Origin: Rhizobium leguminosarum
GTDB taxonomy: Bacteria; Pseudomonadota; Alphaproteobacteria; Rhizobiales; Rhizobiaceae
NCBI RefSeq assembly: GCF_004123835.1
Contig: NZ_MZMU01000003.1
Coordinates: 248,001-312,000 of the forward strand
Reading direction: 5' to 3'
Length of the DNA: 64,000 nt
In this document: piece by piece, positions 2,232-13,567 of the stretch
How positions within the stretch are numbered: the first letter of the stretch is position 1
How the letters are laid out: every line of letters begins with the position of its first letter
Notes under the pieces: generated by a model
Databases searched by the model: none
The model's input: the letters and a program-made list of their open reading frames with translations, nothing else
Told to the model about the DNA's origin: nothing
Position numbers and translations under genes: made by a program

Positions 2232-3752
2232 ATGCCGATAAGAGACCAGGGCGACAATCCTTCGGCGGAAAACCCGGCGGCCGGCGAGGCTGCAAGGGCG
2301 CCGTGCCCGTCTGCCCGCATGTTCGGCGGCCTCTCCGGCAAGCTGCTCTGGCTCACCGTCTTCTTTATCATGCTCGCCGAAATCCTGATCTTCTTTCCCT
2401 CGGTCGCCAGCATGCGGTTGCGCTGGCTGCAGGACAGGCTGAACACCGCCGCTGCCGCCGCGATCGTCATCGATGGGCTGCAGCCCGTCGAGCTGCCGCG
2501 CGCGCTGCAGAAGGAGACGCTGGAGGCGACGGGCACCAAGGCGATCGTGCTGCGCAAGGACGGCACCTCGCGGCTGCTGGCGACGACCGATATGCCGGCC
2601 TCCGTCGATGAAGCCTATGATCTCACTGACGTGCCGCCGGTGACGGCGATACGCGATGCGCTCGACACATTGATCTTCGGCGGCAGCAGGATAATCCGTG
2701 TCTATGGCCCCGTCGGCGAAACCAACACCGGCGTCGAGGTGGTGATGAAGGACAGGCAGTTGCGCACGGCGATGTTCGCCTATTCCCGCAACGTCCTCTT
2801 GCTCTCGGTGCTGATCTCGCTGTTCACGGCGACGCTGATCTTCTTTGCGATCAACCGCATCCTCATCGGCCCGATCCGTCGGTTGACCGGCAGCATGCAA
2901 CAATTCTCCGCCGATCCTGACAACCCGGCCCACATCTATATCGGCGACGGCGGCCGCGACGAACTGGCGGTCGCCGGCCGCAACCTCACCTCGATGCAGA
3001 TGGAACTGCAGAAGACGCTGAAGCAGCAGAAGAACCTTGCCGCTCTCGGCCTCGCCGTCTCCAAGATCAATCACGACATGCGCAATATCCTGGCGTCGGC
3101 GCAGCTGATGTCGGACCGGCTGGTCGATGTCGATGATCCGATGGTCAAGAGCTTCGCCCCGAAGCTGCTGCGTACCATCGACCGCGCCGTCGGTTACACC
3201 ACCGAGGTGTTGTCCTACGGCAAGGCGAGTGAATCGGCACCACGCCGTCGCCATATCCGCCTGTTGGAACTGACCCAGGACGTCAGGGACATGCTGGCGA
3301 TTGATCCGCAAAGCGGCATCGAATTCGCAGAGCAGATCGGCGCCGAGCTTGAGGTCGATGCCGATGGCGAGCAGCTTTTCCGCGTCATCCACAATCTCTG
3401 CCGCAACGCGCTGCAGGCGCTGACGTCGCCGGGTGAGGGCGGCCCGGGCTCCATCCGGCGCATCACCGTTTCCGCCCAGCGCGTCGGCAGCGTTGTCAGC
3501 ATCACGGTGGATGATACCGGCCCCGGCATGCCGCTGAAGGCCCGCCAGAACCTCTTTGCCGCCTTCCGCGGCTCCGCCCGCTCCGGCGGCACCGGCCTCG
3601 GCCTCACCATCGCCCGCGAGCTGGTGCTCGCCCATGGCGGCACGATCGCGCTGGTGGAAAAACCGACGGTCGGCACGCAGTTCCGCATCGAGATCCCCGA
3701 TCGCCCGGTTTCGCTGGAGGATTACCGCAGCCGGACGCATATTGAAAAGTGA
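2232..3752 (+). CDS. membrane sensor histidine kinase
   Basis: 506 residues. Autophosphorylating sensor of a two-component system at the inner membrane. Membrane helices lie at about residues 36-58 and 187-209 with a roughly 125-residue periplasmic part between them, then a HAMP domain, the phospho-acceptor segment (SKINHDMRNILASAQ, His near 281), and an ATPase domain with N box (CRNALQAL), G1 (DDTGPGMP) and G2 (GTGLGLTIARELVLAHGG). The start is chosen at the ATG after a GAGACGAGA ribosome site. No response regulator is next to it in the window, so it is an orphan here and its partner and signal are unknown. Confidence 0.9.
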   Translation: MPIRDQGDNPSAENPAAGEAARAPCPSARMFGGLSGKLLWLTVFFIMLAEILIFFPSVASMRLRWLQDRLNTAAAAAIVIDGLQPVELPRALQKETLEATGTKAIVLRKDGTSRLLATTDMPASVDEAYDLTDVPPVTAIRDALDTLIFGGSRIIRVYGPVGETNTGVEVVMKDRQLRTAMFAYSRNVLLLSVLISLFTATLIFFAINRILIGPIRRLTGSMQQFSADPDNPAHIYIGDGGRDELAVAGRNLTSMQMELQKTLKQQKNLAALGLAVSKINHDMRNILASAQLMSDRLVDVDDPMVKSFAPKLLRTIDRAVGYTTEVLSYGKASESAPRRRHIRLLELTQDVRDMLAIDPQSGIEFAEQIGAELEVDADGEQLFRVIHNLCRNALQALTSPGEGGPGSIRRITVSAQRVGSVVSITVDDTGPGMPLKARQNLFAAFRGSARSGGTGLGLTIARELVLAHGGTIALVEKPTVGTQFRIEIPDRPVSLEDYRSRTHIEK

Positions 3753-3837
3753 CGCGATTTTTTCAGAAATGCTCTTGCATTGTCCTGAAGGACGTTTTAG
3801 AGGATCGCCACGCAAGCGGCACCGCCGCATTTTGCAC

Positions 3838-3914
3838 GCACCCGTAGCTCAGCTGGATAGAGCACCAGACTACGAATCTGGGGGTCAGGAGTTCGAATCT
3901 CTTCGGGTGCGCCA
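3838..3914 (+). tRNA. tRNA-Arg (anticodon ACG)
   Basis: 77 bases with encoded CCA. The acceptor arms GCACCCG and CGGGTGC pair; the anticodon stem CCAGA/TCTGG closes loop CTACGAA with anticodon ACG at 3872-3874; the T loop GTTCGAATC is normal. Its 3' end is repeated at 6706-6724, which marks this tRNA as a likely integration site. Confidence 0.97.
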
Positions 3915-3915
3915 T
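3897..3915 (+). repeat. attL-like repeat: 3' end of tRNA-Arg
   Basis: The 19-base string ATCTCTTCGGGTGCGCCAT, 18 bases of the tRNA plus one, matches 6706-6724 with one difference (G at 3907, A at 6716). The position at the tRNA 3' end, the direct orientation and the recombinase remnant between the copies fit an attachment-site pair. Confidence 0.65.
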
Positions 3916-4009
3916 TTTCCATACAAAAACGGGCACTCCTGCCGCAGCCGCTCGTCTCATGACGAGACGCTCCAGAACGTCCCGCCTTCCGTGGATGCGG
4001 ATTTCATCA

Positions 4010-4195
4010 TCATCGACCCTTGCGTTGCCTTCCCCCCATGAGGCGGGCGAACGCGTCGATCTTTTCCTCAGTCATGCGCGTGTCGGGGCGCAACTCGGCG
4101 AACGCTCGCTCCAGCGCGGCCTTCGCGTGATCGCGCTCGTCCTTCAGCGAAGCGATGCGGCCCCGACAGCCGCCTTCATAAAAAGCATCTTACAG
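4010..4195 (-). pseudogene. C-terminal remnant of a large serine recombinase
   Basis: The minus strand reads as an open fragment with GRIASLKDERDHAKAALERA, then RPDTRMTEEKIDAFARLM, and a stop at 4010. This resembles the helical C-terminal region of resolvase/invertase-type large serine recombinases (charged LK.ERD..K.AL.RA followed by T.E.I..FA.LM). The catalytic N-terminal domain is absent, so it cannot be active. The remaining bases 3915-4432 contain no other gene; an imperfect repeat at 4201-4248 matches 6632-6676. The family call comes from memory of the motif pattern. Confidence 0.55.
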
Positions 4196-4200
4196 AGTGA

Positions 4201-4248
4201 CGATCGCTTGCGCGAAGAAAAGCGGGCTCTGGAATATACCACCAAAGC
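4201..4248 (+). repeat. imperfect direct repeat, left copy
   Basis: CGATCGCTTGCGCGAAGAAA... through ...ACCACCAAAGC is about 80% identical to 6632-6676. The two copies flank the cyclase gene inside the putative island. Confidence 0.6.
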
Positions 4249-4432
4249 AAGGGCTGCCCTGTATTGCCGTCGCCCTCATCAGTCGCCAATTGGCGGACCG
4301 TCTCGATATTCACGCATTTATGAGCTGTATTGATTACCGCTTCCCGAATTGCAGGACTAGTCTGAATGATCGCTGCACACTAATTGTTAGCAGTGCCGGC
4401 CCTGTGCCAAGCCACTCCGTTGGGAGGCTGAA

Positions 4433-6304
4433 ATGCAACGCAAGCTCGCGGCAATCATGGCCGCTGATATCGTCGGCTATAGCCGGCTGATGGCCGAGGA
4501 CGAGTCTTCCACCTATGCAGAGCTGCGCACCGTTTTTGACCACCTGATCGACCCCACTGTCGCCCGCCATGGCGGAACCACCTTCAAAACGACGGGTGAC
4601 GGCTTCCTTGCGATGTTCCCGAGCGTCAACGAGGCCGTTGATGCGGCACTTGCCATCCAGCAAGGTTTTGACGACGGGCCTTTCAAGCTGCGTATCGGCA
4701 TCAACCTCGGTGATGTCATCGAGGATAATGGCGATGTCTATGGGGATGGGGTGAACGTCGCGGCCCGGCTTGAGGCCATGACCGAGCCCGGCCAGATATT
4801 CGTCAGCGGCGCTGTGGTGATGGCCGCCGAGCGCAACCGCGGCGATCTGTTCGCCCGAGTCGGCCGCAGGCGCGCCAAGAATATTCCCGAGCTGCTTGAA
4901 GTGTACCGCGTAAGGCGCGCGGGCTCTCCCTGGTCGATCTGGCGGCAGGTGCCACATATTCTGCGCGGCAGCGCGGCGCGCTGGTCTTATGGCGTTGCTG
5001 CCATCGCTCTCATTCTCATCGGCACCCAGATTTCACCTCTTCCGCTGGCAGCGATGGTGAGCGGCATCCCGGCTGCACTCTCTCTAGACCAGACGCGTGG
5101 AGACCCCAGACCCTCGATTGCCGTCATGCCGTTCGCAACCATGAGCGGCAGCGGTAACCAGCCTTACTTTGCGGACGGACTGACCGAGGACGTGACCACG
5201 GCGCTCGCTCGTAATCCCGAGCTTCAGGTCATCGCCCGCGATTCCACCTATGCCGTGCGCGGTCAGGAGACGGATGTACGTAAGCTCGCGGCAAAGCTTG
5301 GCGTTGATTACGTGGTTGAAGGCAGCGCGCGCCGGGAAGGCGACCAGCTCCGCGTTTCGGCGCAGCTCATTGATGTAGGCACGGGCGCGCACTTATGGTC
5401 GCGCAGCTTCGACAAGAAGGTTGCTGACGTTTTCACCGTCCAGAGCGAGCTCACCACGGAAATCGTCGCGCAACTCGCGCCCTATATCGGCCGAAGCGAA
5501 GCGGCAGCGGCGGCGCTGCGGCCGACGGATAGTCTGCAGGCCTATGATCTCGTCTTGCAGGCCCGCGACCGTTACCGGCACGGCGCCACTGACCATAACG
5601 CTATTCTCGATGCCCGTGGCCTGTATCAGCGCGCCCTGGAAATGGACCCGGCTTATGCCGCAGCCCGCGCAGGTCTTGCGTTGACCTACATCGGCGAAGT
5701 GGCGCAAAGGCCCGGCGGTCAGGCCGCCGCGCCCGAGCTGGATTTGGGTCTCAGTGAGGCGCGGCAGGCCGTGCGGCTCGATCCCAATCTCGGTTTTGGA
5801 TATCAGGTAATCAGTTTCGGACTTGCGCTGCAGGCGGACTATTCGGGCGGACTTCAGGCGGCGCAGCGTGCGGTCGAACTGAACCCCAACGATCCCGACA
5901 GTATGATTGCGCTGGCCAAAGCGCAGGTCCGGTTCGGAGACTATCCGGACGCTGTCGCCAATGCGGAGCGGGCGCGCCGACTGCACCCCATGGCACCGGA
6001 ATACTATGCCTACGTGCATGGTCAGGCGCTTTATGCCGATGGCCGCCGCGAAGAGGCGGCCACGGTCATCAGCGAGTGTCTTGTCAGAGCGCCCCGCGAT
6101 GCGAATTGCCTTCTCATCCAAGCCGCGTTGCAGGGTGGAAGCGGAGAGCTTGAAAAGGCGCAGGCTACCATGGCGAGCCTTGTCGAAGCCCATCCGGCAT
6201 TCTCGCTGGAAGCGGAAAGGGCTTATCGCCGGTTCGGCGACGAGCCCTTGATGGAAGAGTTCCTGCAGGACCTGGCGAGAGCCAAAGCCCCGGAGACGGC
6301 TTGA
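4433..6304 (+). CDS. class III adenylate cyclase with TolB-like and TPR regions
   Basis: 623 residues; makes cAMP from ATP. Residues 1-165 are the class III catalytic domain: metal-binding Asp in AADIVGYSRL and in KTTGDGFLAMF, the purine-selecting Lys of FKTTGDG with an Asp in NGDVYGDGVN, and the transition-state Asn/Arg in GVNVAARLE, so an active adenylyl type is likely. A single membrane helix lies at about 185-205. Residues 220-350 match the TolB/FlgO-like amino domain often found in these proteins (IAVMPFATMSG...YFADGLTEDV...VVEGSARR). The rest is TPR repeats ending at 620. It is the only intact gene between the tRNA-Arg repeats, so probably horizontally acquired. The signal sensed is unknown. 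Confidence 0.9.
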   Translation: MQRKLAAIMAADIVGYSRLMAEDESSTYAELRTVFDHLIDPTVARHGGTTFKTTGDGFLAMFPSVNEAVDAALAIQQGFDDGPFKLRIGINLGDVIEDNGDVYGDGVNVAARLEAMTEPGQIFVSGAVVMAAERNRGDLFARVGRRRAKNIPELLEVYRVRRAGSPWSIWRQVPHILRGSAARWSYGVAAIALILIGTQISPLPLAAMVSGIPAALSLDQTRGDPRPSIAVMPFATMSGSGNQPYFADGLTEDVTTALARNPELQVIARDSTYAVRGQETDVRKLAAKLGVDYVVEGSARREGDQLRVSAQLIDVGTGAHLWSRSFDKKVADVFTVQSELTTEIVAQLAPYIGRSEAAAAALRPTDSLQAYDLVLQARDRYRHGATDHNAILDARGLYQRALEMDPAYAAARAGLALTYIGEVAQRPGGQAAAPELDLGLSEARQAVRLDPNLGFGYQVISFGLALQADYSGGLQAAQRAVELNPNDPDSMIALAKAQVRFGDYPDAVANAERARRLHPMAPEYYAYVHGQALYADGRREEAATVISECLVRAPRDANCLLIQAALQGGSGELEKAQATMASLVEAHPAFSLEAERAYRRFGDEPLMEEFLQDLARAKAPETA

Positions 6305-6631
6305 CGTTCCTGTCAGCGTCGCGGTTTTAGAACGACCCGTCCGTGGACTTGGACAGCTCTGCATAGGCATGCAGCTCAGTGAGGCGCTGCTCCAGAACAG
6401 CCACCACCGCTGATATGGCGTCACCGCCCGCCATGAACTGCTTCGGCCGGTTCTCCAGGCCGGCGAGCTGCCGAGAACCGCACTGCCGATGCGCCGTTAT
6501 TCCTCCCGTCGCCAGTCTTCACCGGCTTTCCATCTGCCTCTTGAGGCTCTCCGATTCACCCCGTCACGGCGCACTCTGGCGGGCCGGACACGACACGAGC
6601 CCCGAGCCGATCTCTCTTGGCCTGTGCAGGT

Positions 6632-6676
6632 AACGATCCCTTGCGCAAGAAGAGGCTCAGGAACACACCACCAAAG
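6632..6676 (+). repeat. imperfect direct repeat, right copy
   Basis: CGATCCCTTGCGCAAGAAGA... to ...ACCACCAAAGC, the partner of 4201-4248, with several substitutions and small gaps. Confidence 0.6.
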
Positions 6677-6705
6677 CCGATGTTCCCATAGGAGTGCTTA
6701 TTTTC

Positions 6706-6724
6706 ATCTCTTCGGATGCGCCAT
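6706..6724 (+). repeat. attR-like copy of the tRNA-Arg 3' end
   Basis: ATCTCTTCGGATGCGCCAT differs from the tRNA end at 3897-3915 by one base. No tRNA body precedes it, as expected for the distal junction of an integrated element. Confidence 0.65.
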
Positions 6725-6936
6725 CTCTATTTTTCATCGAAAGTCTGCCACATCCTGTTGAACCGCGGGAAGAAATCCGCCGTTCCAGGTGCTTCGCCGA
6801 AGCTTGCCTTCGTTCGGGCCATTCAGGTGGAAGTTTCATTAACAACAGCGCAAGCAGGCTGCTCAATTGATTGATTTGGTTTTTCGGCTTTGCAGTAATT
6901 TGCTTAAGGATATATCAAAGCCCGCGGAAAATGCGT

Positions 6937-6959
6937 AAACACCGGTATTGCCGGTGTTT
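6937..6959. repeat. perfect inverted repeat (9-bp arms)
   Basis: AAACACCGG-TATTG-CCGGTGTTT. A second hairpin, AAACCG...CGGTTT, follows at 6996-7016. There is no long T run, so this may be an operator or a weak terminator; it lies about 250 bases upstream of the regulator at 7205. Confidence 0.6.
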
Positions 6960-7204
6960 GGGAAGACGATCTTACATATAGAATTATTCTAAAGAAAACC
7001 GGCAAAAAGTCGGTTTGCGGAAAATCCATTCGTAACGGCGAGGATCTCAAGCATAACGCAACCTTGGGTCTCACACGCATATTGAATTTCGTGGGACATT
7101 GGGACAAAGTGCCCGCCGCATAACGAGTTCGCGACTTTATTATTGCAATGCGCGCATTTCACTTTTCATGTGAACACCCGGGTACGTGGTGACGTAAAGG
7201 CAAA

Positions 7205-9136
7205 ATGACTTTTGTTCTGAACACATTTGGCAGGCTGCAGCTCGTTGACGGGCAGGGGAGCCTCGTCGCGTTTCCCGAGAAAGGTTTGCTGCTTCTCGTC
7301 TATTTGTTGACGACCGGCCAAGGTTCGGCGGATCGAACGACCTTGGCTCGTTTTCTGTGGGGCGATGCCGATAGGGACGTCGCGCTGTCGACTTTGCGTA
7401 AGCTGATTTCGAGAATCAAGGCCCGTCAGACAGAGCTCGGAATAAACATTCTCTCATCTCAGGGGAACACGGTCTCTCTCGACCGAGAGTCCTTGTCTTC
7501 CGACCTTCTGCTATCCGAGACCGACGAAGCCGTCGCCTCGTTCTCCCTGCTTAAGCATCTTGTGAAGCTGCTGAACCAGCCCTTTCTGGGGCCGGTTCAC
7601 TGCCACAGTCGCGAGTTTCAACATTGGCTTGCCGAGCGCGAAAAAGGCCATATCGACCTTCTCGCAAGTACATTGAAAACGGTATCTCGACGAGCGCAGT
7701 CGCGAACGGAATCCGAACTCCTGCGACAGGCCGCCATTATCCTGTTTCGGACGGAACCGAAGGATCCCGATACGCTGCAGTTGCTGATAGAGATATTCAA
7801 GGCGGAGGAAGAAGTTGAATCCCTTCGAAACCATTTCGAACAGCGGCAAATTTCGATTTCGCGAGGGATCGCTGTACGCACCGCATCCGACGGTGGTGAC
7901 ACAAAACCCGTTCTCCCGGCCCTAGCGCCTTCAAGGGAAAAACACGCAACAGCTGTTTCCCTTGAGCCCCAGGACCTCAGCATTGCAATTCCTCGCCTGG
8001 TGCTGCTTCCACCCAGAAATCAATCCATTCATCCCCAAGCCGGTTTTTTAGCCGCGTCTTTGGTGGAGGATATCACGATTGGATTTTGTGCTTTCAACAG
8101 CCTGCAGGTTATAGCCCCATATTCGGCGGTGCAAATTGGCCACCACATGGAGACCCAGAAGGCCTTCTTTGAGCGACATCACGTCAATTACATTCTCGAC
8201 ACTCGGATCAGCAATGCGGGCGATGACGTCACCCTGTTTGCCCAACTGATCTTTTTTGACCAGAATCAAATTGTCTGGGCAGAGAGATTCAGCCTTGATC
8301 ATAGGGATCTTGTCAAAGACAGGAGGGCTGTCTCTCGACGGATTGCTCTTTCCATATCCAGCGAGATCGAGCGCCATGAGGCGTTACGCGAGGATCTGAA
8401 CCCGGCAGCTTACCATCGCTATCTCGTTGGCAGGCGGCATCTGGCGCGGCTGACGCTTCCGAATCTACGGCGTGCGCGCAAGGAGATGAAAGCCGCGCTC
8501 GGCATCAGCCCCGATTTCGCACCGGCGCTGAGTTCGATGGCACGAACTTACTCCAAGGAATGGTTGCTAACCGCGCGAGGTGATATCGATCTGTTGAAAA
8601 CGGCAGAGACTTTGGCAAAGCAGGCCACCGAAACGCGTCTGGATTTTGCCGATGGATATCGCGAGTTCGGCGTGGCGAAATTGTTGCAGGGTGCATTTGA
8701 CGAAAGCGCCGAGGCAATGGAAGTGGCAGAGAGCCTTGCCCCGCACTATGCGGATGTCATTGCCGACTACGCGGACACTTTGGTTCATTGTTCGCTCCCT
8801 GCCATCGCCCTGCGAAAGATCGAGCGGGCAATCGAGTTGAACCCGCTCAGCCCCGACACCTATTTCTGGACCGCTGCCGGAGCAAATTATGCCCTTGGCG
8901 AATTCGAAGCTTCGCTGGATTACATTGGGCAAATGGCCGATGCCAGTTTGGCCGATAGGCTAGCGGCCGCAAGCTGGGCCATGTTGGGCCATCAGGACAG
9001 GGCGCGGATCTTCGTCAGGAGGTTTCGCGAAGTCAATCCGGACTTCGACGTGGACAAATGGCTGTCCGCGGTTCCGAGTAAGGAGCAATGGCATAAGGAT
9101 CTTTACCGAGAAGGCCTGAAGAAAGCTGGATTTTAA
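7205..9136 (+). CDS. winged-helix transcriptional regulator with BTAD-, TolB-like and TPR regions
   Basis: 643 residues, cytoplasmic. Residues 1-100 look like the winged-helix head of SARP/DnrI-like regulators (TFGRLQLVDGQG at the start, then DVALSTLRKLISRIKARQ as recognition helix). Residues 100-210 are helical, BTAD-like. Residues 255-390 match a TolB-like domain (IPRLVLLPPRNQS, then FLAASLVEDITIGF, then NYILDTRISNAGDD). The remainder is TPR repeats. The start follows AAAGGCAAA. The next gene begins 28 bases downstream with a good ribosome site, suggesting that regulator and 72-residue protein form a unit. The target is unknown. GC is lower than in the surrounding backbone. Confidence 0.8.
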   Translation: MTFVLNTFGRLQLVDGQGSLVAFPEKGLLLLVYLLTTGQGSADRTTLARFLWGDADRDVALSTLRKLISRIKARQTELGINILSSQGNTVSLDRESLSSDLLLSETDEAVASFSLLKHLVKLLNQPFLGPVHCHSREFQHWLAEREKGHIDLLASTLKTVSRRAQSRTESELLRQAAIILFRTEPKDPDTLQLLIEIFKAEEEVESLRNHFEQRQISISRGIAVRTASDGGDTKPVLPALAPSREKHATAVSLEPQDLSIAIPRLVLLPPRNQSIHPQAGFLAASLVEDITIGFCAFNSLQVIAPYSAVQIGHHMETQKAFFERHHVNYILDTRISNAGDDVTLFAQLIFFDQNQIVWAERFSLDHRDLVKDRRAVSRRIALSISSEIERHEALREDLNPAAYHRYLVGRRHLARLTLPNLRRARKEMKAALGISPDFAPALSSMARTYSKEWLLTARGDIDLLKTAETLAKQATETRLDFADGYREFGVAKLLQGAFDESAEAMEVAESLAPHYADVIADYADTLVHCSLPAIALRKIERAIELNPLSPDTYFWTAAGANYALGEFEASLDYIGQMADASLADRLAAASWAMLGHQDRARIFVRRFREVNPDFDVDKWLSAVPSKEQWHKDLYREGLKKAGF

Positions 9137-9164
9137 ACACCAATCATTAGAAGAGGGAAAAAGC

Positions 9165-9383
9165 ATGGCTAGAGTTGTTGTTATTAGTGTTGCAGGCGAC
9201 GATGCTCTCTGGGTCGCTGATCTGGGCGCCGGCACGGTGGTGCCTCTTCCGTCTCCCAAGTCGGGTGAGCTGAAAGCGGTAACCGACCTTCGAGCAACCG
9301 GGGCAATCGTGACAAAGGGGGTCAATCTGGCCGTGGTTGTCAAGTCTGCGGACGCGGCATTGTCGGGCCATTATGATGGCTGA
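9165..9383 (+). CDS. 72-residue protein of unknown function
   Basis: Begins MARVVVISVAGDDALWVADL and ends SGHYDG. No signal peptide, no cysteines, no membrane helix; rich in Val/Ala with a regular beta-like pattern. The start is supported by GAGGGAAAAAGC just before the ATG. It sits 28 bases after the regulator and is followed by a long hairpin (9406-9450), so it is probably the last gene of that transcript. I do not recognise the family. It could be a small effector, a peptide precursor or a regulator partner. Confidence 0.65.
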   Translation: MARVVVISVAGDDALWVADLGAGTVVPLPSPKSGELKAVTDLRATGAIVTKGVNLAVVVKSADAALSGHYDG

Positions 9384-9405
9384 TCGCGTATAATCTCTGC
9401 ACCAT

Positions 9406-9450
9406 CACGCTGGATGGCGGGCTGAGATGACCGGCTCGCCTTCCAGCGTG
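9406..9450. repeat. long hairpin after the 72-residue gene
   Basis: Arms CACGCTGGA-T-GGCGGGC and GCTCGCC-T-TCCAGCGTG give a stem of about 16 bp with one mismatch and one G-T pair. There is no T run. It could stop transcription or stabilise the 3' ends of the convergent transcripts from 9165 (+) and 9724 (-). Confidence 0.6.
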
Positions 9451-9478
9451 CCCAATAGGCCCGCCACGGGTCGTGGCC

Positions 9479-9724
9479 TCATTCCTTGATCGGGATTCCG
9501 GCTTCGATCGCAGCGTCGACGAACGCCTGCCGCGCCTCTTCCCGGTTTCGTTTGCCCGACATGACGTCGGCGCAAACAGCACAGGCTCTATCCAGGGCAG
9601 GACCCTCTTCGGTCGGCCAGTCTTCGACCAGCGCCCATGTCGCGGCCTGGGTCGTCTGGATCACCACCCACTGATCCGGCCCTTCAAGGGCGAGCGTTAC
9701 CGGCTTCTTCCAAATGGTTTGCAT
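9479..9724 (-). CDS. DUF982 family protein
   Basis: 81 residues. It reads WKKPVTLALEGPDQWVVIQT, then AATWALVEDWPTEEGPALDRA, then ADVMSGKRNREEARQAFVDAA, which is the pattern of DUF982, a small cytoplasmic family expanded in rhizobia with no established function. The ATG at 9724 is preferred over an upstream one because the family starts a few residues before W-KKPV. Confidence 0.8.
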   Translation of the reverse strand: MQTIWKKPVTLALEGPDQWVVIQTTQAATWALVEDWPTEEGPALDRACAVCADVMSGKRNREEARQAFVDAAIEAGIPIKE

Positions 9725-9900
9725 GGCCTCAGGATCTCCGCTGCGTGCTCTCTGCCGTTGCAGCCTGCACACATAGGGCGATTCATCCGGCGTGGCGAGG
9801 CGCAGTATGAACGAGATGCCTTTCTCGATCAGCGAACTGCTGGGATGTGCTTTTCGAAAATGGTTTCGTGCCGCCGTTTTGCGCGCTCATGCGACGCCTC

Positions 9901-10422
9901 TTAGAATTCCTGCACGAATTCACACGCCAGCAAGGTTTTGCCTGGCAGGGCGTTGCCTTGGCGGGCAACGATGGAGACCTTTCCAGGCCCGGCCATTCCG
10001 GGTTCCGGCTGCAGATCTGCCGGCAGCTCGCGCGAATAGCCCTTGGTGGATGTGCCGAGCAGGTCCGAGGTCTCCCGCTTCAAACCGTATTTCGCGGCCA
10101 GATCGTCAGCGCGTTCGCCTTCGATCAAGACGCCAACAGCGTTGCTTGCAAAGAAAATCTCGTTCGATTTGAAACCGTCGCGGCCTATCTGGTTTGGGAG
10201 TTTGTAGATCGCCGCGCCCAAGGATGACGTGTCCGGCTTGGCCAGAGCTTCCACGACATCATAGATCTTCATTGCCGATGTCATCGTGTAGGGTGGTTTG
10301 CAAAGGGCTGCGTCAAAGAACTTGTCATTGGCCGAATCGGCCAGAACCTGCCCGGCCTGAAATGCCGCAAAAGCGACGCACGCAGAGAAGGCGGCGTGGC
10401 GAATAAATTTGGCGTTGTGCAT
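9901..10422 (-). CDS. secreted protein of unknown function
   Basis: 173 residues. It starts with a signal peptide (basic MHNAKFIRHAAF, hydrophobic core, cleavage near QVLA-DS). The mature part has two Cys (ALCKPPYT near the start and LLACEFVQEF at the end) that could form a disulfide, and no domain I recognise. An upstream in-frame ATG at 10626 is rejected because it would bury the signal peptide. Single gene, convergent with nothing close. Confidence 0.7.
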   Translation of the reverse strand: MHNAKFIRHAAFSACVAFAAFQAGQVLADSANDKFFDAALCKPPYTMTSAMKIYDVVEALAKPDTSSLGAAIYKLPNQIGRDGFKSNEIFFASNAVGVLIEGERADDLAAKYGLKRETSDLLGTSTKGYSRELPADLQPEPGMAGPGKVSIVARQGNALPGKTLLACEFVQEF

Positions 10423-10625
10423 GAAACAATCCCGAGAAAGTGGCTGTAGCGGATTCGTGTGTTGCGAGTTCGAATGCCTAGAGGATTCGAAGTAGTTATA
10501 CCACCCCAAGTTTAATCTCTCAGCTCCACTCTTCTCTTCCGTTTGGCCGTGCTGGTGAGTAGGATGAGTGGCATCGAGCGCGGAGACAGAGATATCGCAG
10601 CGCCGATCCAGAGGCAGGAGAGCCA

Positions 10626-10808
10626 ATGATCGCAGCCTTTATCGATGAAATCATCATGTTTTGCGCCGGCCTGTGGATGGCGTCCGTCGGCTTTGGTTAT
10701 CTGCCGTTTCCCGGCAATCCGGCCAATCGGCCGCCGGTGGTTCGTCACTTCAAGTGGATGGGACCCTTGCTGCTCGCCATCGCCATCGTTCTGGCCGCGG
10801 CCCCCTAG
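10626..10808 (+). CDS. small membrane protein
   Basis: 60 residues with two hydrophobic segments (FIDEIIMFCAGLWMASVGFG and PLLLAIAIVLAAAP) joined by a short polar loop. AGGAGAGCCA precedes the ATG. It lies 29 bases upstream of a zinc-ribbon gene, so the two are probably co-transcribed. Function unknown. Confidence 0.6.
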   Translation: MIAAFIDEIIMFCAGLWMASVGFGYLPFPGNPANRPPVVRHFKWMGPLLLAIAIVLAAAP

Positions 10809-10837
10809 AAGGCGCGTGCTCACGCTGGGGTGAAGCA

Positions 10838-11131
10838 ATGAACAATATCTTGGTCTGCACCTCGTGTGGATTGGACAAAGCAGAATCGATCGTCTACCGC
10901 GGTTCGTACATTCTTCGTTGCGCCGCCTGCGGCGAAACGATTGTCGCAACATCCTTCGCGATGCATGACTTGGAGCATGAGTGTTCGGCCTTTGTCGATC
11001 CTGGTCCCGGAAAACAACCTCCGCCAGAGACGCTCGTCGCGCGTGGACCCTTCCGGCAGATCGCAACGGCAATCAGTGCTGCGGCGAGTGACAGAACGCT
11101 GATACGTCTGATCCCTGAAGCGAAGGATTGA
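10838..11131 (+). CDS. small zinc-ribbon protein
   Basis: 97 residues. CTSC near the N-terminus and CAAC about 20 residues later form a likely zinc ribbon; a downstream His/Cys pair (LEHEC) may add ligands. The start at 10838 follows GGGGTGAAGC. The C-terminal half is unremarkable. No family recognised; possibly nucleic-acid or protein binding. Confidence 0.6.
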   Translation: MNNILVCTSCGLDKAESIVYRGSYILRCAACGETIVATSFAMHDLEHECSAFVDPGPGKQPPPETLVARGPFRQIATAISAAASDRTLIRLIPEAKD

Positions 11132-11157
11132 AGTCCGCCTTTATACAGCTGGCGCCC

Positions 11158-12651
11158 TCATGGCCGTAACCGGACGAGAATCTTGGCCCCGGGAACCCTC
11201 AATTGTTCCGCCAGCGTTTCCAAATCTTTCCTATCCGTTCCCGCCAGAACGATGCGACCATCCATGATCGGCTCCCTCATCCAGGGTTCCATGACGACTT
11301 TGTCGTTGATCAGCATCTGCGTTTGTCGTCCCAATACCGCCTGCGTGAAATCGCGGAATGTGGCGGCGCTTTCCGGGGTGAGCACGATATTCAGGCCATT
11401 GTCGTAGGACACGGGGGACAGGCTTACCTCCGCACTCTTCACCTCAAGCGAGACAGGCGCGATCGCCTTGGCTTCGTCATCGTCTGCAGCAACGGCAGCT
11501 TCTTGCGATGCCGTTGGTGGAGCAGGCGGTGTCGAAAGCTCATCCAGGATGCTCGGCCCGGCCTGGGCTGATGGCAGCGGCTCGATATGCAAATCGGGCC
11601 TCTGCAAGTCTTTTGCCGTCAGCACGGCGGGAAGCTGCAAGCTGGCCGGCATATCCTCGCGTTGGATGTGGGTGTATGTGCGCAACGTCGTCCCTCCTGC
11701 CTCAACGGTGACGATCTCCGACGCTTCGAGCGTCGAACCATCGTTCAGGGACACCACGAGCTCGACGCTTCGGTTCTTGCTGGCGCGTTTGACGGAAGCC
11801 AGCTGATCGGCGGTGAGGTTCTTTGCCCGCTCGGCAAAGCCGCTCATCAAATTTGCGATCGCCGGCTGCTGCGACTGGCTGAACGCTGCGGCGTCGGCTT
11901 CTTCCGACAGCGAAAGGGTTGCTGTGCGTGCGGTTGCGTCGGTGGATTCCAGGGTCCAGGTCGACGTCACCGGGACACTGACGCCGCCATAATCTTCGTC
12001 TCGCAAGGTCGCCGAAGCCTGACCAATCTCCATGGTCTCTGCCTGATAGGACTGCCCTGTGGCAAGCAGTTGCGCCTCCGGCACCAACGCGGCAACGATT
12101 TGGAGAGGGTTTGCCTCGATGTTGTTGATGATGTCATCGAGACCGCTTTCCCGCGCCGTGGAGGCGCCAGCTGCGGGGACCCCACCCGGTCCATTGGCCG
12201 CCATCGCCCGCATGTGCGCCACGATCTGGTCGACACCGGTGATATCGCGCGGGTTGCCGTTCAGGTCGGTTTCGAGTTCGAGCGTCGCGGTGCCATAGGC
12301 CGTGAGGGAATTCCGATAGAGCAGGTTCATCTGATAGCTATCCGCAAGGCCCGCAATGCCTTCCGGCAAATCGGCATTGAGGGACCAGCGGACCCGCATG
12401 CCGTCTTCATCCTGCGACAGGACGGTCATAGCCTGGCGAAACGCGCCGCGCGCCGTCACCGGCGGGGCGCCCGGCTTGTCGAACCAGAACGACATATCGG
12501 TCGCGGTCGCTTTTTGAACGCGGTAGCTCCGCTCGACGCCCATCGCTGGCGCGTAGCCCGGGATCTCGATGCCGCCGGCGGACCATGCCGGATGGGAGAG
12601 TATGAGGCAAGCGCAAAACCAGACAAATCTCTTCCAGCGCAGTGATGTCAT
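11158..12651 (-). CDS. secreted protein with C-terminal SecD-like head domain
   Basis: 497 residues. N-terminal signal peptide (MTSLRWKRF, hydrophobic core, cleavage near PAWSA-GG). The middle is a beta-rich region of unknown family. Residues 390-420 are an Ala/Pro/acidic linker. The last 80 residues read LNIVLTPESAATFRDFTQAV, then GRQTQMLINDKVVMEPWMRE, then GRIVLAG and LAEQLRVPGA. This is the pattern of the periplasmic P1 head subdomain of SecD. None of the SecD membrane helices are present, so it is not a translocase; it may bind periplasmic client proteins. A start seven codons upstream (12672) is possible. Confidence 0.72.
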   Translation of the reverse strand: MTSLRWKRFVWFCACLILSHPAWSAGGIEIPGYAPAMGVERSYRVQKATATDMSFWFDKPGAPPVTARGAFRQAMTVLSQDEDGMRVRWSLNADLPEGIAGLADSYQMNLLYRNSLTAYGTATLELETDLNGNPRDITGVDQIVAHMRAMAANGPGGVPAAGASTARESGLDDIINNIEANPLQIVAALVPEAQLLATGQSYQAETMEIGQASATLRDEDYGGVSVPVTSTWTLESTDATARTATLSLSEEADAAAFSQSQQPAIANLMSGFAERAKNLTADQLASVKRASKNRSVELVVSLNDGSTLEASEIVTVEAGGTTLRTYTHIQREDMPASLQLPAVLTAKDLQRPDLHIEPLPSAQAGPSILDELSTPPAPPTASQEAAVAADDDEAKAIAPVSLEVKSAEVSLSPVSYDNGLNIVLTPESAATFRDFTQAVLGRQTQMLINDKVVMEPWMREPIMDGRIVLAGTDRKDLETLAEQLRVPGAKILVRLRP

Positions 12652-13567
12652 GCGGGCAGGGCCTCTGAACATTGAAGGTTGTAGGGCGCCGTCCGGCCGC
12701 CGGCCGCGAGCTTATTGGCTGATGAAGAGAATGGGTAGTGCCGACGCTACGATAATCGTTCTGCGCGAAACTGCTTCAGGTTTTCAAGATTGAGATCGGG
12801 AGATCAAGGTTAAGCACTTCTCATCGGCCGCTCCAATCTCTGCCCCAAGACAGCGAAGCGAAAAACTATTGAGCGGTCGGGTGGTCTCTTAAATAGTCTT
12901 CCCTTTCTTCCTTCCCGACCAAAGATGAGTAATAGCCGCTGCAAACCAGATATGAGCACTCATCCGGGTTGCCCGTTTGCCATCCCGGCTGGCAGAGTAC
13001 GACGTGATGGAATTTGGCGTTGCAAAGTCCGTGGTTTGCTAGGAGCCGCGGATCGTTTCCGAAATACGCGCTTATGGCTTTCTCGCGAGTCCATGCAGGA
13101 ACGACTTTCCAACCGCGTCGCCGCCCTCATCGGTCACGTTGGCTATCGCACAGAACGACCAATTGGATATGACGATCGGCTGATCGCAGGAAAAAGCCTG
13201 GACGGCGCTTGCCAGTAAGATCGAAAACAATGCCGGCAATCGCCGGACGCTAACGACCACGCTCTTCTCCCCCATACCGCTTATTCGCATCGCGCTTCTA
13301 CCCCCGAGATTCATTGCAGGGATCCTAGCAGAAGGGGCTGGATGATAGAAGATCATAACTAAGAATATTTTCCTAGTTCATGGATCGTTCTTGCGCTAGG
13401 TTTGCCGCTATTGCAACCACGGACTGTTAGATGTTGAGCAAATTTTTTCTCCGAGATGAGGCGATGGTGTGGGCGAGCTCTGGCCGTCACGCGCTGCATG
13501 AACGGAGTTCCCGCAACAGGCTCCGGAGGGCGGGCGGATACCGATCGACAACACGGGCGAGGGGCTG
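12652..13567. other. 900-bp gap with at most one small gene
   Basis: Apart from a weak minus-strand small secreted ORF at 13072-13314 I see no coding signature: codon patterns are irregular and open frames overlap on both strands. An AT-richer stretch near 13360-13400 may carry a promoter. Confidence 0.5.
13072..13314 (-). CDS. possible small secreted protein
   Basis: 80 residues. Basic N-terminus, hydrophobic core RLPALFSILLASAVQAFS, then a 30-residue mature part with two Cys (SCDQP and SFCAI). AGGATCCCTGCA precedes the chosen ATG. There is no family match and the N-terminal region before the core is long. It could be a chance frame. Confidence 0.35.
   Translation of the reverse strand: MNLGGRSAMRISGMGEKSVVVSVRRLPALFSILLASAVQAFSCDQPIVISNWSFCAIANVTDEGGDAVGKSFLHGLARKP

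Follow-up and report, generated by a model that had tools for sequence, protein, structure and literature searches.

A 2.8-kb segment of Rhizobium leguminosarum DNA, bounded by a tRNA-Arg(ACG) gene and by a displaced copy of the 3' end of that gene, appears to be what remains of a mobile element that was placed there by a large serine recombinase (LSR). The stretch of DNA analysed here, referred to as the window, comprises 64,000 nucleotides (bases 248001-312000 of contig C1 in a 6.95-Mb genome) and the segment occupies positions 3915-6724 of it. We give a probability of about 0.87 to the interpretation that the segment is an integrase-less, att-flanked remnant of an LSR element, similar to a cis-mobilizable element (CIME), with a class III cyclase gene retained by selection. 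The empty site in relatives, both cores, both attachment arms, 76 C-terminal LSR residues, LSR relatives at tRNA genes and a 43-kb element whose right end is of the same type can be read directly from sequence. An original prediction, made from the letters of the window, of a small element that had lost its integrase and kept a signalling gene is supported by these results, with 76 of 551 LSR residues remaining and the cyclase gene intact.

Insertion site and empty sites in related genomes

The integration target, a tRNA-Arg(ACG) gene called by ARAGORN at 3838-3914 (plus strand), ends in the attL core, so that the end of the tRNA plus one base (3897-3915, plus strand) forms the first copy of a core repeat. 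The second copy, i.e., the attR core at 6706-6724 (plus strand), marks the right limit of the insertion, as judged from repeat comparison and from empty-site junctions, and was identical to the first at 18 of 19 bases, in agreement with the single mismatch originally predicted. When the 18 tRNA bases were compared with the whole window on both strands, four or fewer mismatches being allowed, one further match was noted (21688, minus strand, 4 mismatches).

Bases 3200-7200 were searched against 148 genomes of the genus, and 20 fetched loci were mapped; these, together with 40 further tRNA-Arg(ACG) flanks, made up 60 compared loci. The comparison of this locus among relatives, as proposed with the original prediction, revealed a single clean junction without the insertion in two of the 60 loci (at least two among the matches listed in the 148-genome search). 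Thus, in genomes G034 and G011, the tRNA was joined straight to the counterpart of window sequence from 6706/6725 onward, with the repeat as overlap, and the 495 bases past the junction were 87-90% identical to the window; no trace of the interior of the insertion was found in the fetched loci of either genome. The segment past the junction was also present in G001, where it followed the cyclase unit, and the remaining compared loci had other sequence after the tRNA and were uninformative on the junction. These findings confirm the segment 3915-6724 as inserted DNA at the 3' end of tRNA-Arg(ACG). A tRNA gene at one end, a displaced 3' fragment at the other and an uninterrupted site in relatives (G034 and G011) are all present, as in a genomic island; an integrase gene on board is not, and because only 76 of 551 integrase residues are left, the segment is considered a remnant rather than an active island.

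The empty sites of G034 and G011 might instead be secondary, which would mean that an ancestor had the unit, that it was lost by precise excision and that the carriers represent the older state. Precise excision would be the result of a recombinase acting on attL and attR, and the carriers and empty relatives are close. On a tree of the neighbouring kinase, which adjoins the site and may travel with it, G034 and G011 group, however, with G037 and G031 (support 85/88), which are also without the unit; this would require the loss to be older than that group or to have recurred. Precise loss is unlikely and, in any case, the segment would be a mobile element under this interpretation too.

The recombinase remnant and its intact relatives

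The C-terminal recombinase remnant originally noted next to the tRNA was confirmed as two minus-strand pieces, which align with residues 508-542 (3916-4017, 77% identical) and residues 443-483 (4037-4159, 76% identical) of a 551-residue LSR from genome G088 (E 4e-24). Residues 484-507 and all residues before 443 were not found in the window, the 76 surviving residues being confined to 3916-4159. A Pfam search with the two pieces gave no match; the LSR relatives in G088 and G053 contain Resolvase, Recombinase and zinc-ribbon domains, and the window keeps only the part of the protein that comes after these domains. From these alignments, the vanished integrase could be identified as an LSR and not as one of the usual tyrosine type.

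Members of the LSR family (E <= 1e-100) were present in 64 of the 394 genomes of the window's family. Among 30 loci returned from these 64 genomes, including one (L228) with an internal stop, the 3' end of the LSR gene abutted the 3' end of a tRNA gene on the opposite strand in 28. The target genes were those for tRNA-Arg (ACG or CCG), tRNA-Ser with four different anticodons and tRNA-Glu. The stop codon of the LSR was within the tRNA gene, in a fixed frame, at 22 of the 30 loci, and at six others, all tRNA-Ser, the reading frame crossed the tRNA gene and continued beyond it.

In G053, a full-length LSR was found at tRNA-Arg(ACG), i.e., at the same tRNA as in the window. This element is ICE-like (integrative and conjugative element-like) in its predicted gene content, since conjugation-type genes (VirB8, TrbL, VirB4-like, secretion-ATPase and coupling-protein) occur within the next 14 kb after the LSR. 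A search of G053 with window sequence 6706-13000 gave partial matches only, which were on other contigs.

Attachment arms and right ends

Many copies of the tRNA end in Rhizobium, Mesorhizobium and Bradyrhizobium were preceded by a shared sequence near CAATGACATAGCGGTGCCCAGTTTC, and across genera the right arm that comes before such copies was close to AATGACATAGCGGTGCCCAGTTTC. The corresponding arm of the window (6679-6705, plus strand) agreed with the 27-base cross-genus consensus at 16 positions, a level (16 or more) reached at 24 of 127,946 positions of the window, and the values for G088, G001 and the G053 candidate were 21, 21 and 19, respectively. Both arms and cores were read from sequence alone, and the core that follows the right arm resembled, by eye, the end of tRNA-Arg(ACG) or tRNA-Arg(CCG). 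A pattern of right arm plus ATC was noted at 20 sites in 16 of the 148 genomes of the genus and a pattern of right arm plus core in 5 of 397 genomes of the order; the reversed pattern gave no site in either search. The right-end site of the G088 element was 43.2 kb from the tRNA core, and that of G053, a candidate with a diverged core, was approximately 65 kb away. The short core pattern did not by itself locate the right end in G088 or G053.

The left, attP-derived arm of the window (3915-3945, minus strand), which reads AGGAGTGCCCGTTTTT... towards the core, was also found beside intact recombinases in other loci. The two arms are partly inverted repeats, as would be expected of attP arms. 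Thus, the window and G209 arms matched at 11 of 14 positions each, which was equalled in 4 of 500 shuffles for each, and those of G001 matched at 13 of 14, a value not reached in 500 shuffles.

CIMEs are att-flanked leftovers of ICEs. The window segment shares with CIMEs the retention of attL and attR, one at each end, and the absence between them of an intact integrase gene and of transfer genes; it differs in that its recombinase is of the serine type, and its mobilization by a related element is a proposal only.

The cyclase gene and its passage between genera

The single intact gene of the segment (4433-6304, plus strand) encodes a 623-residue class III adenylate/guanylate cyclase with a TolB_N-like and TPR region, as evident from its open reading frame (ORF), Pfam and structure alignment, and the original assignment of this gene was upheld. 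The match to PF00211 (41.4 bits) was well over the curated cut-off of 21.9, and alignment with the solved cyclase 3mr7 (E 1.2e-34) extended through the stretches ADIVGYSRLM, KTTGDGFLAMF and GDVYGDGVNVAARLE, which we take to be conserved catalytic motifs; both signs of a class III cyclase were therefore found. By its family, the protein would be expected to synthesize cyclic AMP, and any role for it is predicted on the same grounds. The ORF was open in all seven Rhizobium carriers with a mean ratio of nonsynonymous to synonymous divergence (dN/dS) of 0.13, and the gene is under purifying selection. The outcome that would have spoken against the original prediction, i.e., a cyclase gene in all relatives, did not materialize, as the cyclase was noted at 96% or higher nucleotide identity in 7 of 148 genomes, including its own, among the matches listed; all seven copies were beside tRNA-Arg(ACG). 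A 76% identical copy in G090 was elsewhere in the genome without a tRNA-Arg flank, and this locus (L052) was excluded from tRNA-flank counts. The window's genome contained 27 cyclase Pfam matches.

A segment in front of the cyclase gene (4304-4345, plus strand) aligned by eye across Rhizobium, Mesorhizobium and Bradyrhizobium and is a possible promoter. In the R. johnstonii 3841 locus (L044, 2249-3000), a transposase-like ORF pair, presumably IS5-like, separates the cyclase gene from the conserved segment in front of it and would part the gene from its likely promoter.

Cyclase relatives were examined at 27 of 29 loci, two weak cyanobacterial rows (L124 and L125) having been dropped. A right-end scar, as defined by a loose pattern, occurred no more than 600 bases after the cyclase stop codon at 17 of the 27 loci (within about 65 bases at 16), and a stricter pattern gave 15 sites in the same loci.

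The gene could also be an old resident beside tRNA-Arg(ACG) that has descended vertically from an ancestor shared by Rhizobium, Mesorhizobium and Bradyrhizobium and has disappeared from most Rhizobium, in which case the repeats would be incidental. In keeping with this possibility, the order kinase, tRNA-Arg(ACG), cyclase was also noted in Bradyrhizobium (L107, L109, L112 and L119) and Mesorhizobium (L101, L106, L114 and L120), tRNA-Arg(ACG) was called in 12 of the 27 cyclase loci and the Rhizobium carriers cluster on the kinase tree. The clean empty junctions of G034 and G011 argue against it, as does the occurrence of a class III cyclase gene within 10 kb in only one of 53 other tRNA-Arg(ACG) flanks. 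Values of synonymous divergence (dS) were also lower for the cyclase than for the neighbouring kinase, both among Rhizobium carriers (mean 0.106 as opposed to 0.187) and between the Mesorhizobium sp. YC-39 gene and the seven Rhizobium copies (mean 0.18 as opposed to 0.91, the latter being near saturation). Long residence is therefore very unlikely. The difference in dS between the YC-39 cyclase and kinase, together with the location of the cyclase beside the same tRNA-Arg(ACG) gene in YC-39 and Rhizobium, indicates that the cyclase crossed between genera into the same tRNA gene, be it by an LSR or by another route.

Stacked scars and other elements at the same tRNA genes

Two or three scars in the same direction were noted at 6 of 22 loci, most of which had been found through the arm sequence, and at 3 of the 27 cyclase loci. 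Three single scar sites were present in 53 tRNA-Arg(ACG) flanks selected without regard to cyclases (13 of the 20 mapped loci and 40 others, up to 10 kb each), and none was present in reversed-sequence controls. In the YC-39 locus (L101, 4425-13940), tRNA-Arg(ACG) was followed by three layers with right-end scars between them at positions 7569, 10277 and 13886, and the class III cyclase gene differed from layer to layer. Stacked scars were also evident at tRNA-Arg(CCG) in L172, L185 and others, with three in a row in L185.

An enrichment of cyclase genes at tRNA-Arg(ACG) as such was considered and rejected, the 53 flanks containing one cyclase gene compared with 2.0 expected. Around right-arm scars, 12 cyclase genes were noted in 6 of the 22 loci compared with 1.4 expected; without L182, which resembles L180, the number was 9 compared with 1.3 expected, or 7 compared with 0.8 expected within 5 kb of a scar. 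This enrichment is a lead rather than proof, given that the species are not independent and that the background rate is from one genome.

A 2.6-kb unit in Bradyrhizobium yuanmingense (L107, 7246-9905) consisted of tRNA-Arg(ACG), a PF01242 gene of the 6-pyruvoyl tetrahydropterin synthase family, a cyclase gene and a right-end scar. Partial or near-complete second tRNA copies (31-82 bases matched) were noted near the cyclase gene in L103, L106, L111, L115 and L118, as other islands there would leave.

ORFs with DUF6538, which we take to be the N-terminal part of tyrosine integrases, were located directly after the same tRNA in G030 (L042, 1984-2451) and G019 (L053, 1869-2492), the latter with its own second core copy at 4643, and the tRNA site in these genomes seems to be used by another type of element. 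That a tyrosine integrase also placed the window element, the LSR remnant being left by an unrelated event, is very unlikely; the DUF6538 ORFs, the second core copy in G019 and the statement in the Islander report that only tyrosine integrases are known to target tRNA genes (PMC4383910) are in its favour, but no such integrase was seen among the ORFs of the window unit, the LSR remnant abuts the tRNA as its intact relatives do and the right-end core has an arm like the right end of the G088 LSR element.

Other sequences in and beyond the segment

The pair of imperfect 45-base repeats in the original prediction (4197-4248 and 6630-6677, both plus strand) exists, with 81% identity over 52 aligned positions and small gaps. 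The repeats are not ends of the element, as the segment lies upstream of other cyclase genes, i.e., those of G028 and Mesorhizobium L101, L104 and L114. In G028, the counterpart of the right copy forms the lead-in to a second cyclase gene, cycB, which is absent from the window; the right copy therefore probably derives from a second unit that has been lost. The predicted minus-strand gene fragment without placement was likewise recovered (approximately 6310-6500, no Pfam match), and the part of it up to 6469 is common to Mesorhizobium YC-39 and G075.

Beyond the right end, a gene at 7205-9136 encodes a protein of 643 residues that matches TPR weakly and whose middle resembles, by eye, the TolB_N-TPR part of the cyclases. 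The segment at about 6725-9470 is variable, being common to G001, G034 and G011 only among the 60 compared loci, and may represent an earlier layer in this stack. Among the plasmid records searched, none covered 80% of 3838-9500, the best coverage being 42%.

Discussion

The favoured interpretation, a CIME-like remnant of an LSR element, involves the following steps. An LSR would have joined a circular element, with an attP of inverted arms around a core equivalent to the tRNA 3' end, to the tRNA gene, which was thereby restored. Most of the LSR, and probably also a second cyclase unit, would later have been deleted, so that an att-flanked piece without an integrase remained, in which one intact class III cyclase gene was kept by selection. 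Renewed movement of such a remnant would require a related recombinase to act on its att sites.

Several observations weigh against this interpretation. The cargo and the machinery were not seen together, as the recombinase elements of G088 and G053 carry no cyclase gene, and no adjoining tRNA was called at two of the 30 LSR loci (L241 and L250). The right arm of the window is worn (16 of 27 positions), and both consensus pattern searches missed it along with the G088 arm. Arm symmetry was not significant in the elements with a full recombinase, namely G088 (10 of 14 positions, equalled in 54 of 500 shuffles) and G053 (9 of 14, 314 of 500). The right-end core is kept in two of the seven Rhizobium carriers, the window and G001, and none was found after the cyclase gene in the other five. 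Finally, all seven carriers are placed together on one side of a branch in the kinase tree (support 60/95), so that one arrival followed by descent is enough to account for them within Rhizobium; repeated transfer among Rhizobium species was considered and is not supported by this clustering.

The segment shares with the tRNA islands described in the Islander report (PMC4383910) an intact tRNA gene at one end, a displaced 3' fragment at the other and an empty site in relatives. It differs from them in the serine type of its recombinase, of which the C-terminal end only is left, in its length of 2.8 kb and in its single intact gene; according to that report, tRNA genes are not known as targets of serine recombinases. 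According to an actinobacterial survey (PMC3218068), serine recombinases at tRNA genes are rare, examples being actinomycete integrative and conjugative elements of Mycobacterium at tRNA-Leu and phage phiRSM1 at tRNA-Ser. These have in common with the window's family a serine recombinase that targets a tRNA gene, whereas the LSR family described here is alphaproteobacterial, occurs in 64 of 394 genomes, uses several tRNA genes and has its stop codon inside the tRNA at 22 of 30 loci. The accessible text of a study of Mesorhizobium ICEs and integrative and mobilizable elements (PMC8627217) does not state the site used by serine-recombinase elements, and the word cyclase does not appear in its main text. 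In a Sinorhizobium survey, tyrosine integrases at tRNA genes were reported, one of which was also similar to a serine recombinase (PMC11476347). A search of open-licence PubMed Central papers found no description of this tRNA-targeting LSR family or of cyclase-carrying units. Since serine recombinases at tRNA genes are rare but published, we class the window segment as what is left of an element of a rare but known type, of which it would represent an alphaproteobacterial variant with several tRNA targets and cyclase-carrying units.

A broader scheme may be put forward tentatively, although it is doubtful in its full extent. Rhizobia and their relatives would harbour a family of tRNA-targeting LSRs together with att-flanked, integrase-less units, many with a single class III cyclase gene, which would be mobilized in trans and accumulate at tRNA-Arg(ACG) and tRNA-Arg(CCG), forming an expanding array of signalling genes in which the same right-end site closes every layer; with each integration, the last codons of the LSR would be rewritten from the antisense strand of the tRNA gene. 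A widespread alphaproteobacterial LSR family with readable arms would enlarge the repertoire of insertion tools that leave their target restored. Residence of such a family at tRNA genes would account for recombinases in which a tRNA gene supplies the codons for the last residues, and its arms would offer a way to trace the gain of cyclase genes.

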